Positions 32,441 to 39,742 of a DNA stretch of 39,742 nt are shown here, piece after piece. Location of the stretch: positions 1-39,742 of the forward strand of contig JABDCE010000021.1 of assembly GCA_013288285.1 (NCBI GenBank), given 5' to 3'. Within the stretch, counting starts at the first letter, position 1, and the number at the start of each line of letters is the position of its first letter. The DNA comes from Bacteroidota bacterium. GTDB lineage: Bacteria > Bacteroidota > Bacteroidia > Chitinophagales > Chitinophagaceae. Both the position numbers and the translations under genes were made by a program. Below the pieces are notes generated by a model. The model was not told the origin of the DNA and made no database searches. It saw nothing but the letters and a program-made list of their open reading frames with translations.

Positions 32441-32526
32441 GCCCTGGTGGCGGAATTGGTAGACGCGCAGGACTTAAAATCCTGTTTGCTGCAAGGCGAG
32501 TACGGGTTCAATTCCCGTCTGGGGCA
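32441..32526 (+). tRNA. tRNA-Leu (anticodon UAA)
   Basis: An 86-nt class II tRNA: acceptor GCCCTGG / CTGGGGC, anticodon stem CAGGA / TCCTG with loop CTTAAAA (TAA at 32475-32477), a long variable arm, and T arm GGGTTCAATTCCC. Its 3' end borders the integrase region and is the probable attachment site of the element. Confidence 0.96.
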
Positions 32527-32531
32527 CTAAG

Positions 32532-32554: not shown

Positions 32555-32639
32555 ATGCCTAAAATGCAGTAAAATCAATACTTTCCTGACATTCGTTATT
32601 TTTAAATTTCCTATCATTTCACACATTTTGTCCCTCCTG

Positions 32640-32662
32640 TGTCCCCCCGGAGTTGGGGGACA
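32640..32662. promoter_or_regulatory. inverted repeat over the integrase promoter
   Basis: TGTCCCCC (32640-32647) and GGGGGACA (32655-32662) form an 8-bp dyad with a 7-base centre. It overlaps the -33 element of the integrase promoter, so it could be an operator or an integrase arm site. Confidence 0.5.
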
Positions 32663-32683
32663 AATTTAGTTTACTTACCTTTA
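32653..32683 (+). promoter_or_regulatory. integrase gene promoter
   Basis: TTG (32653-32655), a 20-bp spacer and TACCTTTA (32676-32683), one mismatch to TAnnTTTG. The ATG at 32720 follows after 36 bases. Confidence 0.5.
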
Positions 32684-32719
32684 TCCAACCAAACACAAAC
32701 AAACGAAAATACAGATATC

Positions 32720-33784
32720 ATGAGCGTTACACTAAGAAGGAAACCGAATAGCGATGGTAGTATATCACTTTATCTTGATGTATACCACAACAAAAAGAGG
32801 CATAAAGAATACCTCAATGACTGCAAATTGTATAAAGCTACCAATGCAGTTGACCGAAAACACAATAAAGAAACCCTTGAACTGGCTGAAAATATTGCAA
32901 TAAAGAGAGCGCAGGAACTTGTAAGCCAGGGTTATGATGTATTGGCATCGTTCAAAAGTAATGTTGACTTCCTGGATTATTTTGAAACTTACATCAAGAA
33001 GTATACGAAGAAAGACAAAAGGAATATGGAAGGTGCACGTAACCGGTTCAAAGACTTCATGAAGAAAGAGGGCATTAAAAGCCTCACGATGAAGCAACTT
33101 ACCGAAAACATTGTCCATAAGTACGCGGAGTATTTGAGCGATACGTCGGAGGGCGAAGGGGCAAGCAGTTACTTCAAGCGATTTAAGAAGATGATTAAAC
33201 AAGCGGTAAGGGAGAAGGTGATCCTAAGTAACCCGGCGGCGGACGTTAGCATCAAGCGGGATGATAGCATAGTAAAGGATGTTCTTACCATTGAAGAGAT
33301 TAAGATATTGGCTGGGACACAGATAACCAACACTGAGATAAGGAATGCCTTTTTATTTTGTTGTTTTACCGGACTAAGTTGGATTGATGTGAAAGAGTTA
33401 AAATGGAAGCACATAAATCTTAGAAACTTGCTACTTACCAAGGTTAGGGCCAAAACAGATACCGAGACAGTTGTTAACTTGAACAGCACAGCCCTTTCAA
33501 TGCTACCAGATGCAGGGGAACCGCAAGATCTTGTGTTTACCCTGCCAAGTAATGCCGGGGCACTTAAATCGCTAAAGAATTGGGTTAACAAAGCTGAGTT
33601 GGGAAAACACATCACTTGGCACTGTGCTCGGCACTCATTTGCGACAAATTTAATATATTATAAAACAGACGTGACAATAGTTGCTAAATTATTGGGGCAC
33701 AGTACACTTAAATATACGCAAAGATACGCACACATAGCCGAAGAACTGAAAAGAAATGCAGTAAATAGTCTACCCCAAATTTAA
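32720..33784 (+). CDS. tyrosine recombinase (site-specific integrase)
   Basis: From ATG 32720 (MSVTLRRKPNSDGSISLYLD) the product is 354 residues: an N-terminal arm-binding part, a SAM-like core-binding domain (about 100-195) and a catalytic domain. Catalytic residues seen are Lys in TKVRAKTDTE, His301 and Arg304 in WHCARHSFAT, His327 in LLGHST, and Tyr336 in QRYAHI. The first catalytic Arg, normally in TGLR, is replaced by Ser220 (FTGLSWIDV). The same loss is known in IntDOT of CTnDOT. The gene lies 194 bases from the 3' end of tRNA-Leu, the typical place for an element integrase. Confidence 0.94.
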   Translation: MSVTLRRKPNSDGSISLYLDVYHNKKRHKEYLNDCKLYKATNAVDRKHNKETLELAENIAIKRAQELVSQGYDVLASFKSNVDFLDYFETYIKKYTKKDKRNMEGARNRFKDFMKKEGIKSLTMKQLTENIVHKYAEYLSDTSEGEGASSYFKRFKKMIKQAVREKVILSNPAADVSIKRDDSIVKDVLTIEEIKILAGTQITNTEIRNAFLFCCFTGLSWIDVKELKWKHINLRNLLLTKVRAKTDTETVVNLNSTALSMLPDAGEPQDLVFTLPSNAGALKSLKNWVNKAELGKHITWHCARHSFATNLIYYKTDVTIVAKLLGHSTLKYTQRYAHIAEELKRNAVNSLPQI

Positions 33785-33815
33785 GCATCTCTAATTTTGA
33801 AACTCATAGTTTGAT

Positions 33816-34535
33816 ATGAAACGACACCTTAACGCCTTTCAGCTTTATATTCTGCGGCAACTAAATGGGTTATTTCCAATGCATGTTGATATTTCTATTT
33901 ATAAATCGGCATGGTTAACCAACAACTTAACCGATACCTTGGAGCAAGTGGGCAATTGGGTAGAAGAGATGGTGATTGAATCCTATATTGGTGGAAACCC
34001 GGCCAAAGTATCACCTGCTCTGTATAATTTTTTTGCAGATGAGAATGGCTATCCTTCCACCTCAGCTTATGGCATTACGCAAAAGGGAAGAGACTATTTA
34101 GCTGCCGTACCTCCGAAGAAAAGCTACACAACAACGAACAATAATGAAAATGCTGTAGAGCCTAACCTGGTTGAAAAAAAATTGAAAATGAGTGATCGCC
34201 CGTCTTTTTCAAAGGCTGCTCTTAGTCAGGTTCTGAGTAGTGATGTGATCGATAAATTTATTGAGCTTGAGAATAGATTAATCGATGATGGCTACTTTAA
34301 TGAGCACGGAAAATGGATAAAAACATCAGATGAATGCGCCGCATTTATAAATAAACTTATTGTTAGGAGGTATTTTCTACAAAAGAGAAATTTTGAAACT
34401 TGGATAACAAAGACCTGTAAGCCATTTTTTGAGAATAGGTATCAAATTTTGTTTACCCGACAGATGCAATACAAGTATCGCAATAGCAATAAGCTGGCAC
34501 CCTACTTTAGGTTCATTGAAGAATTACGAAAATAA
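33816..34535 (+). CDS. uncharacterised 239-residue element protein
   Basis: I do not recognise a family. Residues 1-100 (MKRHLNAFQLYILRQLNGLF) look helical with a small winged-helix-like ending (SAYGITQKGRDYLAAV). A Thr/Asn-rich linker (about 108-118) follows. The C-terminal half (SKAALSQVLSSDVIDKFIEL, then EHGKWIKTSDECAAFINKLI) is helical and basic, ending YFRFIEELRK. It may bind DNA. It follows the integrase by 31 bases and is probably co-transcribed. A weak terminator-like hairpin comes after it. Confidence 0.75.
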   Translation: MKRHLNAFQLYILRQLNGLFPMHVDISIYKSAWLTNNLTDTLEQVGNWVEEMVIESYIGGNPAKVSPALYNFFADENGYPSTSAYGITQKGRDYLAAVPPKKSYTTTNNNENAVEPNLVEKKLKMSDRPSFSKAALSQVLSSDVIDKFIELENRLIDDGYFNEHGKWIKTSDECAAFINKLIVRRYFLQKRNFETWITKTCKPFFENRYQILFTRQMQYKYRNSNKLAPYFRFIEELRK

Positions 34536-34613
34536 ATATTTCCGATTTTGCCTTTTTTATGACTTTGGTTGTTTCCAATTTTACTTTAATAATGCTTTGA
34601 AATATTTACCTGT

Positions 34614-34633
34614 AACGGCTTTCAGGCCGTTTT
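34614..34633 (+). terminator. possible weak terminator after the 239-residue protein gene
   Basis: Stem AACGGC / GCCGTT, 6-nt loop, followed by a short T stretch (TTTTAT). Short stem and short T run make it weak. Confidence 0.4.
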
Positions 34634-34705
34634 ATGCCATTACTAATTTTCTCCATTTCCTGCATTGCGTCGGACATTTGGCTTGCCATTTCAGAACGGA
34701 GTGGT

Positions 34706-34721
34706 AACAGTGGCCACTGTT
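34706..34721. promoter_or_regulatory. 16-bp perfect palindrome before the HTH gene
   Basis: AACAGTGGCCACTGTT is a perfect 16-bp dyad with no loop, 26 bases before the ATG at 34748. The lack of loop makes it a protein-binding operator candidate, possibly for the adjacent HTH protein, not an RNA terminator. Confidence 0.6.
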
Positions 34722-34747
34722 CTTTTCTAACTCTTAATTCATAGAAA

Positions 34748-35068
34748 ATGAACAGGAAAAGTATTACCCTGCAAGATCTGCAGGCTATCCACAGCAAGCT
34801 CGATAATATTCAATCCGCTATGCTGTCAGGTAAGACCGTGCTCACCTTTGACGACGTGGTGTGCTATACCGGTTTCAGCAAATCGTATTTGTACAAACTT
34901 ACCAGTGGCGGCATAATACCGCATTCCAAGCCAAATGGAAAAAATATCTATTTCGATAAGATGAGTATTGATATTTGGCTCCTGAGTAATCGGGTTAAAA
35001 CCAATGTGGAGATTGAGGCCGAAGCAACGAATTATGTAACGCTGAAAAATAAAGGAGGTAGATCGTGA
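34748..35068 (+). CDS. excisionase/MerR-like helix-turn-helix protein
   Basis: A 106-residue protein with an N-terminal coiled-coil-like helix (LQDLQAIHSKLDNIQSAML) and a HTH_17-type winged domain: LTFDDVVCYTGFSKSYLYKL, then GIIPHSKPNGKNIYFDKMSI with W at residue 77. Such domains are found in excisionases and in AlpA-like activators of element genes. Its end overlaps the next gene start by 4 bases (GTGA), so it is translationally coupled to the primase. Confidence 0.85.
   Translation: MNRKSITLQDLQAIHSKLDNIQSAMLSGKTVLTFDDVVCYTGFSKSYLYKLTSGGIIPHSKPNGKNIYFDKMSIDIWLLSNRVKTNVEIEAEATNYVTLKNKGGRS
35051..35059 (+). promoter_or_regulatory. Shine-Dalgarno for the primase GTG start
   Basis: AAAGGAGGT lies 5 bases before the GTG start at 35065, inside the end of the HTH gene. 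Such a strong ribosome site is unusual in this window and fixes the start. Confidence 0.75.
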
Positions 35069-36522
35069 ACGGAGCAAAATTTACGTCTGGGGAAGGACAC
35101 GCCAAAGGTACGTCAAAAAGTAAAGCGCAGCAGGAATTTGAGCCGATTAACCATGAGGAACTACTGGACACCTTACTTGATGGGATACAGCCGGTAGATT
35201 TTAGAGAACTGACCGAGACCACAGGCAACGACAAGCTAAGTAACAAACACTATCTCGTTACGTGCATTGAACAGGTACTGATCACCGCTCGCAATAATAG
35301 CTGGGGGTTATGTACGAACAACGAGGCTATTTACCTATACAACCGTGCGTACTGGAAAGCGATCGATGAGCCGACGTTTCAGGTCTTTTTAGGGAGAGCC
35401 GCCGAACGCATGGGTATAGATAGACACAACGCCCGGTATTACCAGTACAGGGAACAACTGTATAAACAATTCCTTTCGGCGGCGAATTTGCACAGGCCGG
35501 AGCCGGATAGCGATACAGTGCTTATCAACTTACAGAACGGCACTTTTGAAATAGGAGCCGATGCACAGAGACTACGCAGCCCGGAGCCTGCTGATTTCTT
35601 AACTTATCAGTTACCGTTTGAGTATGACCCATCGGCCGATGCGCCGTTATTCCACACCTATCTAAATCATGTGTTGCCTGACCCGATCCTGCAGAAGATA
35701 CTCGCAGAATACCTTGCCTATTTGTTTGTCAGGCCGAGTGTGTTGAAGCTAGAAAAGATGCTGCTCATATATGGTAGTGGCGCAAACGGCAAGTCGGTGC
35801 TGTTTGATATAGTAAATGCGTTGCTTGGCTCACAGAATGTCTGTAGCTATTCGTTACAGTCTTTGACTGATGAGAGTGGATATTACCGTGCAATGCTTGC
35901 GGATAAGCTCGTAAACTACGCATCGGAAATCAACGGTAAACTGGAATCAGCATCCTTTAAGGCGTTGGTTTCCGGTGAACCTATCCATGCCCGGCTACCA
36001 TACGGCAATCCTTTTACACTTACTAAGTATGCAAAGCTGATTTTCAACTGCAATGAACTACCCAAAGAGGTGGAACAGACCCATGCGTTTTTCCGGCGAT
36101 TCCTGATCATCCCGTTTGATGTAACCATCCCTGAAGCCGAGCAGGATAAGCAGCTATCCCAAAGGATAATCAGGAGCGAGTTATCGGGCGTTTTTAACTG
36201 GATGTTGTCCGGGCTGGCCAGGCTATTAACCGAAGGCAACTTCACGCATTCCGATGTTGTGGAAAAGCAAACGGACGATTATAAGCGGCAATCTGATTCG
36301 GTTTTGATGTTCGTTGATGAGGAAGGTTGGGTGGAGGATTTGTCACAGTTTAAGGACTTAAAAACTGTCTACGGAGAGTATAAAGGTTACTGTGAGGAAT
36401 GCGGCTATATGAAATGCAGCTTAAGGAAATTCAGCGACCGGCTCAGGAGGCAGGGTTTTAAAATGGAAAGAAAAAACTATGGGTTCGTTGTTTATATGAA
36501 TAGAAAAGTGTTTGTAAAGTAG
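35065..36522 (+). CDS. P4/D5-type primase-helicase (SF3 NTPase)
   Basis: A 485-residue protein with a D5-N-like region (about 130-225) and an SF3 helicase core. Walker A is GSGANGKS at 237-244. The later KYAKLIFNCNELPK contains the sensor-like Asn, and FFRRFLIIPFDV is the arginine-finger segment typical of phage/plasmid primase P4 C-terminal domains. The N-terminal catalytic primase domain of P4 alpha is absent; primase function may come from the DUF6371 protein downstream. It is required for element DNA replication (inference). The start is the GTG at 35065 with a strong Shine-Dalgarno, overlapping the HTH stop by 4 bases. Confidence 0.9.
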   Translation: MNGAKFTSGEGHAKGTSKSKAQQEFEPINHEELLDTLLDGIQPVDFRELTETTGNDKLSNKHYLVTCIEQVLITARNNSWGLCTNNEAIYLYNRAYWKAIDEPTFQVFLGRAAERMGIDRHNARYYQYREQLYKQFLSAANLHRPEPDSDTVLINLQNGTFEIGADAQRLRSPEPADFLTYQLPFEYDPSADAPLFHTYLNHVLPDPILQKILAEYLAYLFVRPSVLKLEKMLLIYGSGANGKSVLFDIVNALLGSQNVCSYSLQSLTDESGYYRAMLADKLVNYASEINGKLESASFKALVSGEPIHARLPYGNPFTLTKYAKLIFNCNELPKEVEQTHAFFRRFLIIPFDVTIPEAEQDKQLSQRIIRSELSGVFNWMLSGLARLLTEGNFTHSDVVEKQTDDYKRQSDSVLMFVDEEGWVEDLSQFKDLKTVYGEYKGYCEECGYMKCSLRKFSDRLRRQGFKMERKNYGFVVYMNRKVFVK

Positions 36523-36530
36523 TTCACTTC

Positions 36531-36582
36531 CTTCACTTGTTGCACCGGGTACCCAAAAGTGTACCTGGTGTAGCAGGTGAAG
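36531..36582 (+). other. long intercistronic hairpin (22-bp stem)
   Basis: 36531-36552 pairs with 36561-36582 as RNA with 22 consecutive base pairs (18 Watson-Crick and 4 G-U: positions 37/76, 40/73, 42/71 and 47/66 of 365xx) and an 8-nt loop (CCAAAAGT). It starts 8 bases after the primase stop and is not followed by a T run, so it is not a classic terminator. It could be an RNase III-type processing or stability element or a replication hairpin. Confidence 0.8.
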
Positions 36583-36601
36583 TACAAAATAAAACATTTC
36601 T

Positions 36602-37486
36602 ATGAATTTGATTAGAATAAAAGAAACTCCAAGGGCTAACTTGGAGTTTGATAAAAAAAACAGGTACAGGGTAAGGCAATGCCCCTGCGGTAAGAGTAAT
36701 AACGACTGCAAGTTTATACCCTATATAGGCTTTGACGATAAAGGGTATTGCCATGCCTGTGGTCAGACATTTTTACCTGGCAGTAATGATAACCTTAGCC
36801 CCAAAGAATACGGAGCGGCTGTTAAAGATCCCTCGTATATAGAATATGAGACCTTTAGCGAAAGCCTTAAGAACTCTGGGTGTAATAATTTTGTTACATT
36901 CCTATCTGACCTTTTTGCTGAAGAGATTAGGTCGAAGTTAATAAGTACATATAATATTGGCACTTCCAACCACTGGCATGGTGCAACAGTCTTCTGGCAA
37001 GTAGATATCAATGGCCGTATCAGGGACGGCAAAATAATACACTATAGCCCATTAACCGGTAGAAGATCGAAGGACCGGTACCATAGTCCGAATTGGATAC
37101 ACAGTGTCTTAAAACTACCTGATTTTAACCTCAAACAGTGCTTATTCGGTGAGCACTTATTACCAGCAGAAGCAAATAAACCGATAGCAATAGTCGAATC
37201 CGAAAAGACCGCCATTATCGCAAGCGCCTACATGCCGGAATACATCTGGCTTGCATGCGGTGGCCTGACAGGGCTCAATGCCGAAAAATGCGAGGTGTTA
37301 AGGGGAAAGAACATCACTCTATTCCCTGATCTGAACGGATATGAGAAGTGGACTGAAAAGGCAAGAGAGCTTTCACATATTGCCGGGTTCTCAGTTTCTA
37401 ACTACCTGGAGAGAATCGCTACTGCTGAAGCAAAAGAGCAAGGATTGGATATTGCAGATTACTTGGTGAACGATAACTTAAAATAA
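36602..37486 (+). CDS. DUF6371-like zinc-finger / Toprim-like replication protein
   Basis: A 294-residue protein with an N-terminal zinc-ribbon-like region (Cys27, Cys29, Cys36, Cys50, Cys53: CPCGKSNNDC and CHACGQTF), resembling a primase zinc finger, and a C-terminal Toprim-like part (AIVESEKTAIIASAY, LACGGLTGLN, ITLFPDLNGYEKW). The family seems to be Bacteroidota DUF6371 (from memory). It lies 19 bases after the intercistronic hairpin and follows the P4-type helicase, so it probably supplies primer synthesis for the element. Confidence 0.8.
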   Translation: MNLIRIKETPRANLEFDKKNRYRVRQCPCGKSNNDCKFIPYIGFDDKGYCHACGQTFLPGSNDNLSPKEYGAAVKDPSYIEYETFSESLKNSGCNNFVTFLSDLFAEEIRSKLISTYNIGTSNHWHGATVFWQVDINGRIRDGKIIHYSPLTGRRSKDRYHSPNWIHSVLKLPDFNLKQCLFGEHLLPAEANKPIAIVESEKTAIIASAYMPEYIWLACGGLTGLNAEKCEVLRGKNITLFPDLNGYEKWTEKARELSHIAGFSVSNYLERIATAEAKEQGLDIADYLVNDNLK

Positions 37487-37604: not shown

Positions 37605-37649
37605 TTGACACATCTTGACTATGAAGGGATCGGTGTATATTTGTGTCAA
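37605..37649 (+). promoter_or_regulatory. strong promoter flanked by an inverted repeat
   Basis: TTG (37615-37617), 18-bp spacer and a perfect -7 box TATATTTG (37636-37643). It is flanked by TTGACACA (37605-37612) and TGTGTCAA (37642-37649), a perfect 8-bp inverted repeat that covers the expected start site. This looks like a repressor-controlled promoter for the structured RNA and the genes after it. Confidence 0.68.
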
Positions 37650-37708
37650 ATGATCTGCTTATAAGAAAATAAAAAATAACATTAAGGTTTCGCACTGTAC
37701 TCGCTTGG

Positions 37709-37813
37709 CCGTCCAAACTACCACGTTAAAAGGCAAGAACAGAGTAAGCTGCAGTGCACCCGTAAGGGTGTAGCTGTGCTTCTGTTCTTGAAGGCCGTGG
37801 TAGGCCTGGACGG
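37709..37813 (+). ncRNA. compact multi-stem structured RNA (unnamed)
   Basis: The segment folds into nested stems. P1 is CCGTCCA/TGGACGG (37709-37715 with 37807-37813); P2 is CTACCACG/CGTGGTAG (37718-37725 with 37796-37803). P3 is AAGAACAG/CTGTTCTT (37735-37742 with 37782-37789), then AAGC/GCTT, CAG/CTG and a CACCC/GGGTG top stem with a GTAA (GNRA) loop (37762-37765). All stems are Watson-Crick, separated by small internal loops, and nothing in it is coding. It lies about 60 bases after a perfect promoter. I cannot match it to a named RNA class. It could act as a free RNA or as a 5' leader of the 318-residue gene. Confidence 0.72.
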
Positions 37814-37863
37814 CGGAAGATGTCGGTTGCACCCGATTTTTTTGATGAAGTCCAAACTACCAC
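37711..37863 (+). repeat. 14-bp direct repeat GTCCAAACTACCAC bracketing the RNA
   Basis: The copies are at 37711-37724 (5' strand of P1/P2) and 37850-37863, three bases before the ATG at 37867. The 3' strand of P1/P2 can pair with either copy, so two exclusive folds are possible, the second of which would cover the start region. Confidence 0.85.
37823..37843 (+). terminator. terminator-like hairpin with T7 run after the structured RNA
   Basis: TCGG / CCGA with a 6-nt loop, then seven T. The stem is only 4 bp, so termination would be weak or conditional. The layout RNA-weak terminator-gene allows both a short RNA and read-through. Confidence 0.5.
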
Positions 37864-37866
37864 AGA

Positions 37867-38886: not shown

Positions 38887-39742
38887 ATGGCAAATGACAA
38901 TTTATCGGATTTAATCCCATACCGCAACGGTAATAGATGGGGATACTGCGATAGCCATAAAAAGATTATAATTGATTGTGCCTACCGTGATGTAGAAATA
39001 TTTTCAGAAGGGTTAGCTGCTGTGCGGCCATTGGAGTCTTACGATTCGGAGCGCGGTATGCAATACCCAGGATGGGGTTATATTGATCAAACTGGCAAAA
39101 ATATTATTGACTTCCAATTTACAGATGCATCATCTTTTAATAATGGATTCGCCAATGTACACAATGACTATCACGTCGTTACACGTGGATATTATATCGA
39201 CAAACTGGGTAATCCGGTTGGTGAGCGCGAGTACAGGAAAAGGATCTATGAATCTTCCGAAATTGTAAATGAGCATGATGAATGGACAGAGCAGACTAAT
39301 ACTGGCACACACTTTTATAAATATGACAGATGGCACCTAATTGATAGCGCCGGAGTATTGGAAATTCCAGTCGCTCCAAAATTTGCCGGTCTTATTACAG
39401 AAGGACTGGTTATAGTTAACATAAACGGCGGGCTTGGTTTCTATGACATAACAAAACGACAAAATATTCCCGGTAAATATGAGGACGTGTTGTTTTTTCG
39501 GGAAGGATTAGCAGCAATAAGACTAAATCGAAAATGGGGTTTTATTGATAATAGTGGCAAAGAGGTGATTCCAGCTAAGTATGGGAAAGTGGAATCCTTT
39601 AGTGAGGGAATAGCCCTGGTGAAATCGAACGGGAAATATGGATTTATAGATAAGAGTGGTGAAGCGATAGTTGACATAACCTATGAATTTGCTGAAAGCT
39701 TTTCGGATGGTTTAGCATTGGTAAGTGTAAACGAGAAATTTG
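38887..39742 (+). CDS. WG-repeat protein (cut by right window edge)
   Basis: At least 285 residues with no stop before the window end. The start is MANDNLSDLIPYRNGNRWGY, with no signal peptide, so it is probably cytoplasmic. It has repeated WG/KWR units of about 30 residues: RWGYCDSHKKIII, GWGYIDQTGKNII, KWGFIDNSGKEVI, KYGFIDKSGEAIV, each linked by F-S-E/D-G-L/I-A. WG repeats build beta-propeller-like scaffolds for protein binding. It follows the 318-residue gene in the same direction without a visible terminator between them, so it is probably the same transcript. The role is unknown; in an element it may be a recognition or assembly component (inference). Confidence 0.88.
   Translation, partial: MANDNLSDLIPYRNGNRWGYCDSHKKIIIDCAYRDVEIFSEGLAAVRPLESYDSERGMQYPGWGYIDQTGKNIIDFQFTDASSFNNGFANVHNDYHVVTRGYYIDKLGNPVGEREYRKRIYESSEIVNEHDEWTEQTNTGTHFYKYDRWHLIDSAGVLEIPVAPKFAGLITEGLVIVNINGGLGFYDITKRQNIPGKYEDVLFFREGLAAIRLNRKWGFIDNSGKEVIPAKYGKVESFSEGIALVKSNGKYGFIDKSGEAIVDITYEFAESFSDGLALVSVNEKF

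Follow-up and report, generated by a model that had tools for sequence, protein, structure and literature searches.

The stretch of DNA analysed here (the window, 39,742 nt of a Bacteroidota contig) holds, just in front of an orphan gene, a long hairpin that is a member of an RNA family without a match in Rfam, and this so far unrecognised family looks like a class of RNA on/off switches. Judged from sequence comparison, the RNA is probably a cis-acting, bistable leader that would gate the gene behind it by a mechanism of the attenuation type. An earlier sequence-only reading had proposed either a leader with two exclusive folds gating the gene or a free RNA acting with the encoded protein; covariation and the conservation of competing pairings give strong support to the former, while the latter is not supported, as the downstream proteins differ between loci.

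In the window, the hairpin at 37710-37815 (the rod; parts in Table 1) has a predicted folding energy of −55.7 kcal/mol and a z-score of −7.57, with equally stable folds in 0 of 200 shuffled sequences, and a longer leader folds with a z-score of −5.0. This confirms the structured RNA with several stems that had been noticed from the letters; taken as 37708-37814, the hairpin has a z-score of −7.6. The claim that a strand of its base stem recurs exactly 139 bases on and 3 bases before an ATG also held: the 14-nt repeat GTCCAAACTACCAC is present at 37711-37724 and at 37850-37863, in these two copies and with no tandem RNA repeats in the window, and S′ is complementary to both S and S2, so that the 3′ strand can indeed pair with either copy. 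As for the weak terminator suggested between RNA and gene, the 4-bp stem TCGG/CCGA before the T7 tract is readable, but what relatives conserve is a longer 11-bp pairing of segments 3 and 4 (37766-37776 with 37824-37834) that ends just 5′ of the T-tract. The described promoter was found in its place, TATATTTG lying between the arms TTGACACA and TGTGTCAA of an 8-bp inverted repeat; its motif, TAnnTTTG, is one that we take to be a Bacteroidota promoter motif. No Rfam family matched the window RNA.

Table 1. Features of the RNA, its promoter region and the surrounding locus in the window
Feature	Position	Strand	Remark
tRNA-Leu	32441-32527		adjoins mobile element
Mobile-element context overall	32639-37486	+	beside tRNA-Leu
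Tyrosine integrase	32639-33784	+	mobile element
HTH_17 gene	34748-35068	+	mobile element
D5/DUF5906 primase-helicase	35065-36522	+	mobile element
DUF6371 gene	36602-37486	+	mobile element, upstream of RNA
8-bp inverted repeat around promoter	37605-37649	.	TTGACACA 37605-37612 / TGTGTCAA 37642-37649
Promoter-motif match TATATTTG	37636-37643	+	motif TAnnTTTG
Segment 1	37686-37706	+	potential partner segment 2, 15 bp, −16.5 kcal/mol
S, 5′ strands of rod stem 1 (37708-37715) and stem 2 (37718-37725)	37708-37725	+	contains first repeat copy
Stem 3, 5′ strand	37734-37743	+	partner 37781-37790
Segment 2, hairpin tip 5′ strand	37746-37760	+	partner segment 1 or segment 3
Segment 3, hairpin tip 3′ strand	37766-37776	+	partner segment 2 or segment 4
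Stem 3, 3′ strand	37781-37790	+	partner 37734-37743
GGC/GCC alternative hairpin (37793-37795 with 37804-37806)	37793-37806	+	loop holds stem 2 3′ strand
S′, 3′ strands of stem 2 (37796-37803) and stem 1 (37807-37814)	37796-37814	+	complementary to S and pre-ATG copy
Segment 4	37824-37834	+	partner segment 3, terminator-like
T-tract (T7)	37837-37843	+	directly 3′ of segment 4
S2, second repeat copy	37850-37863	+	3 nt before ATG 37867; complementary to S′
Downstream gene P0001, 318 aa	37867-38823	+	without Pfam, PHROGs or PADLOC match

The far end of the mobile element is outside our view, because the contig stops at 39742 and no repeat of the tRNA region of at least 13 nt was found further along it. 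P0001 gave zero matches in Pfam, PHROGs and PADLOC, and it is followed by a WG-repeat protein (38887-39741) that extends past the contig edge. A protein search of 99 genomes returned one partial relative besides the window's own copy, and viral, genome, phage and plasmid collections gave none at the limits used. The C-terminal part of P0001 (residues 208-317) occurs as a free-standing 122-aa frame with 68% identity in a same-genus genome (L003:440-769), and a covariance search of that genome (G003) found no member of the RNA family. In a DNA search of 396 genomes, the best non-window match was 23 bases long (E 1.2e-4); matches occurred in 353 genomes at E ≤1, and those outside the window were short, were judged to be A/T-rich chance and were rejected as homologues. 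The protein-first route to relatives was dropped, since conservation sits in the RNA and not in P0001.

Because P0001 has almost no relatives, we used DUF6371 genes, present in 8 of 35 same-genus genomes, to fetch seven loci besides the window. Two of the seven had a hairpin of the same build with other stem letters near the DUF6371 gene, and one DUF6371 locus (L050) carries the RNA further downstream of the gene. As MAFFT misaligned the first three hairpins, a covariance model built from the window hairpin alone was used first, on 13 loci and then on the 35 genomes of the genus. The two DUF6371-locus hairpins ranked best after the window among the 13 loci (42.6 and 28.8 bits), and the genus genomes yielded eight more full-length matches at E 0.013 or better. 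For the wider search we used a covariance model of ten loci with eight candidates scored per genome; at E 0.05 it matched 99 of 394 related genomes, with up to five copies per genome among the candidates scored; these genomes fall in 53 of 179 genera and include 21 of the 35 of the window's genus. A phylum-wide draw gave matches at E 0.001 in 14 of 395 genomes, three in the window's family (the window's genome included) and eleven in other families of the class or phylum. A pattern scan beyond these added four contigs from uncultured Bacteroidetes MAGs, and viral contigs showed no match to the family. The 93 distinct loci analysed below comprise nearly all matches above about 66 bits among the matches listed, plus a few; L091 was left out because it duplicates one of the two L128 loci, and the weak or odd L094 (37.5 bits) and L167 (no T-tract) were kept. 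L128 has two copies in one genome (4918-5063 and 7005-7146) with 2 kb between them; the frames behind them are unrelated, one lipoprotein-like and the other response-regulator-like. L113 carries a DUF805 RNA (RF03081) at 2641-2707, about 1 kb behind the family RNA; kinship between the two was rejected, their structures being unrelated.

Covariation supports the rod across these loci. Among the first ten, two of which are close relatives, 38 of 41 predicted pairs showed two-sided change. In the 93-locus alignment, which was fitted to the rod, 93.2% of pair cells were paired (61.0 in shuffled alignments), 1289 cells carried two-sided changes (379 shuffled), and the covariation score was 0.841, a value reached in 0 of 500 shuffles, as against 0.226 shuffled and a maximum of 0.116 for slid partners; at least one two-sided change was seen in 41 of 43 pairs, compared with 37.0 after shuffling. 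The covariance check put forward in the earlier reading thus returned homologous loci with covarying stems. Most stem letters are free to vary, the internal-loop pattern recurs across relatives, and A-rich and GGC/GCC internal loops are conserved. The GGC/GCC pairs were paired in 92, 92 and 91 of the 93 loci, the inner pair being CG in 70, GC in 13, TA in 6 and AT in 1. G-U combinations outnumbered A-C combinations by 306 to 67 in the family alignment, and the conserved folding strand is therefore the plus-strand RNA.

Pairings that compete with the rod are conserved as well. Segments 3 and 4 paired below −8 kcal/mol in 92 of the 93 loci, with medians of −16.1 kcal/mol within a locus, −10.9 between loci and −5.7 after shuffling; the between-loci background is high (69% below −8 kcal/mol) because the segments are partly conserved in sequence. 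For segments 1 and 2 the corresponding medians were −10.7, −7.4 and −6.3 kcal/mol, 57 of 93 loci lay below −10 kcal/mol versus 19% between loci, and the helix ended 0-7 nt 5′ of the rod in 70 of the 71 loci below −9 kcal/mol, while the control pairings 1:3 and 1:4 were flat and without signal over the 93 loci. When the nascent RNA was ended at the tip loop, at least six 1:2 pairs were predicted in 88 of 93 loci, compared with 160 of 277 combinations with the flank of another locus. The 3′ half, cut by model columns and aligned with MAFFT without structure, folded into a terminator hairpin plus a nested GGC/GCC hairpin, with two-sided change in 14 of 17 pairs, 94.4% of pairs formed and a median z of −4.9 against mononucleotide shuffles. 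RNAalifold gave no consensus for the 5′ half, where support for 1:2 comes from the pairing-energy, nascent-fold and helix-end tests. The 10 nt after segment 4 held a median of 7 T over the 93 loci (background 2.8), although segment 4 and the T-tract were included, unpaired, in model R2, so that the loci were partly selected for both; one locus had no T there (by eye, L167). As pairing potential, then, the terminator strand is shared with a competing antiterminator helix, which is itself competed by a more 5′ segment.

For the window, the predicted nascent fold forms 1:2 once segment 2 is out and later 2:3 and the rod as the rest emerges. The fold with 1:2 and 3:4 (fold B) has an energy of −58.2 kcal/mol against −73.9 for the rod. 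Being 15.7 kcal/mol more stable, the rod is therefore the expected default, and fold B would need kinetics, or a factor that holds or delays the 5′ half.

Upstream of the rod, TAnnTTTG occurred at positions −140 to −30 in 36 of 92 loci, compared with 6.6 in shuffles and 0-9 of 88-89 in other upstream stretches. The 8-bp inverted repeat was not enriched in relatives (4 of 37 motif-bearing loci versus 4.9% of shuffles), and the supposed operator flanking the promoter is not a family feature. Many loci (e.g. L092, L098 and L114) have in common CTATGNNTARATAA about 50 nt 5′ of the rod, a start codon with a stop within a few codons, which could be a leader mini-ORF or a protein site. A leader peptide common to all loci seems unlikely: mini-ORFs of up to 10 codons were found upstream in 64 of 93 loci versus 47 after shuffling and 21-29 in other upstream stretches.

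Conservation of the second repeat, also proposed as a check, was borne out in about a third of the loci and is absent from the remaining two thirds. In 31 of 93 loci, 8 nt or more of the rod's 5′ strand recurred exactly within 130 nt downstream. The same was true of 99 of 1104 pairs formed between loci and of 9 of 93 stretches taken upstream. Of the 31 copies, 30 ended −2 to 5 nt ahead of the first ORF's ATG, and the remaining one fell within the reading frame. In 33 of 79 loci, S′ is complementary to the pre-ATG region at −14 kcal/mol or better, against 4.9% between loci; the match is often split into a stem 1 block and a stem 2 block whose spacer differs from the one in the hairpin. We therefore regard the copy, which changes together with the hairpin, as kept for pairing and not merely left over from an old duplication. 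Inspection by eye shows a pre-ATG copy also in L189, from another family of the class, and in L198, a weakly scoring locus of the window's family. In the available part of the window's genome (58% complete), the repeat-plus-ATG pattern without mismatch was found at the window site only, and with up to three mismatches at six others versus six in a backward control.

The genes behind the RNA are close and varied. An ORF of at least 50 aa began within 60 nt of the T-tract in 79 of 93 loci, compared with 296 of 1730 random places; the distance was 20-28 nt in 52 of the 79, and 14 of the 93 had no such start. By a rough heuristic, 52 of the 79 downstream proteins have a signal-like N-terminal stretch. 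Pfam assigned ten chosen proteins to ten different kinds: response regulator, ECF sigma factor, LytTR, acyltransferase, collagen-like protein, NHL-repeat protein, histidine kinase-type ATPase, RDD protein, Fib_succ_major/aspartyl protease protein and helicase. The commonest protein clusters directly behind the RNA, collagen-like lipoproteins, reached at most 6 of 93 loci. Neither the clusters nor Pfam on the ten chosen proteins gave a functionally coherent gene set, and no protein family was shared behind the RNA across the 93 loci; the differing families therefore favour a general gate and disfavour a dedicated RNA-protein pair. Within 3.6 kb of the 93 loci, one transposase family, presumably IS1595-like, recurred at 19 loci, DUF6371 at 7 and integrase at 7; the transposase occurs on either side and strand of the RNA. 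At eight loci of other genera (L161, L164, L168, L171, L172, L173, L177 and L180), the genes that follow the RNA, some of them several hundred nt away, are sigma factor-like, FecR-like or TonB-dependent receptor-like; these names were given by eye, except for the L173 sigma factor (Pfam).

Given the rod, the competing 1:2 and 3:4 pairings, the T-tract, the short distance to the ORF and the pre-ATG complementarity, the best-supported mechanism is attenuation as the shared output, with start-codon masking probably added in about a third of loci. In fold A, the rod, S would be paired with S′, stem 3 closed and 2:3 formed as the tip, leaving segment 4 and the gene start region free and the gene expressible, which would make the rod the ON state. 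In fold B, 1:2 would form, 3:4 would form directly before the T-tract, and the 3′ strand of stem 2 would sit in the loop of the GGC/GCC hairpin; this intrinsic-terminator-like structure would end transcription ahead of the gene. At roughly one locus in three, the window among them, S′ may also pair with the pre-ATG copy and so block translation of read-through transcripts. Our best guess for the input is a co-transcriptional race, in which something that engages the 5′ half (segment 1 or S) would tip the RNA to fold B.

Several described systems resemble parts of this arrangement. In trp-type attenuators, 1:2 and 3:4 with a T-tract compete against 2:3, and the family RNA has the same set of pairings; it differs in having three rod stems interleaved with those segments, in the inconsistent occurrence of a candidate leader peptide across loci, and in that the genes behind it are not biosynthetic operons. 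C4 antisense RNA precedes a gene in the same transcript and matches, by two complementary blocks, the region where that gene starts. The family RNA is likewise upstream with two such blocks (33 of 79 loci), but has no Rfam match, another fold and a terminator with T-tract as a conserved part; a P4-like collinear antisense was rejected, the block order being incompatible with one duplex. C4 antisense RNA (RF01695) of P1-like phages is named in PMC2864571. For IsrK of prophage Gifsy-1, PMC4825925 describes a partner strand inside the orf45 reading frame and a short form that activates in trans. Its own promoter in a mobile element, its terminator with read-through into the gene and its alternative folds deciding translation have predicted counterparts here, whereas our RNA has no Rfam isrK match, places the copy before the ATG (in a third of loci) and differs in fold and host phylum. 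No IsrK- or C4-type Rfam match was found in the window or on the RNA of 16 member loci; an isrJ-like Rfam hit in L119 is located away from the family RNA. By analogy, IsrK appears to be the nearest described logic and trp attenuation the nearest architecture, and we claim membership in neither. Flavo-1 (RF01705) and the structured 5′ regions of Flavobacterium psychrophilum (PMC9723704) are, like the family, structured Bacteroidota RNAs, many of them outside Rfam. Flavo-1 had no match on the window RNA or the 16 member loci scanned, the passages of PMC9723704 covered describe no element of this build, and the portion of the open-licence PMC literature covered, passages of PMC9723704 and PMC2864571 included, gave no description of the family.

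The IsrK comparison raises the possibility of a dual RNA acting also, or mainly, in trans: a T-tract-ended small RNA of about 190-200 nt would use S′ to pair with pre-ATG copies, or S to pair with the S′ of a read-through mRNA. It would then work as a repressor like C4 or an activator like IsrK, with immunity between related mobile elements as one example of a role. We consider this unlikely. It would accommodate the T-tract and own promoter motif, the position of S′ in the loop of a conserved hairpin, the potential of a third of loci to pair with the start region in two blocks, and the mobile context, and IsrK is described in PMC4825925 as working so; yet the copies found are in cis at short distance, and a second exact target is absent from the available 58% of the genome. 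Copies within a genome were, moreover, not significantly more different than between genomes (4 pairs versus 6.7 expected, P 0.16), and distinct specificities within one genome were rejected on these numbers. That a small molecule or ion binds the rod at its A-rich and GGC/GCC internal loops and selects the fold, as in a riboswitch, seems improbable: two exclusive folds with a terminator-like expression platform and a recurring internal-loop pattern would suit an aptamer, but the gene set is incoherent, the GGC/GCC loop letters covary mutually as in a helix, and most stem letters are free.

The mobile context, together with stems that vary within a constant build, might also indicate a structured site in the DNA of mobile elements, attC-like or an origin, whose fold forms in the single strand. 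The strand asymmetry of G-U over A-C, not expected of an attC-like DNA hairpin, the promoter enrichment, the T-tract and the short distance to the ORF start make this very improbable. Scarcely any weight falls on an RNA-protein element, for instance a type III toxin-antitoxin system, where the protein encoded downstream would be bound by the RNA: the window RNA does stand directly before a gene of unknown function, but downstream proteins are unrelated between loci and the repeat has two copies only, without tandem RNA repeats. The preferred reading remains the cis-acting bistable leader. A broader version of it, which we put forward tentatively and think somewhat doubtful, is a phylum-wide class of re-addressable RNA gates that travel with mobile elements and place a double lock (terminator plus start-codon masking) on any gene behind them, with S, S′ and S2 free to change together and possibly with trans action between copies.

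Overall, we describe a large RNA family with very good structural support, from a phylum in which RNA regulation has been little mapped, and a general two-state switch that appears to be tied to genes that are unrelated and often mobile. Should this reading hold, the switch would be a portable gate with a variable address, which would help to explain how newly acquired genes are restrained and could be used as a control part for Bacteroidota.
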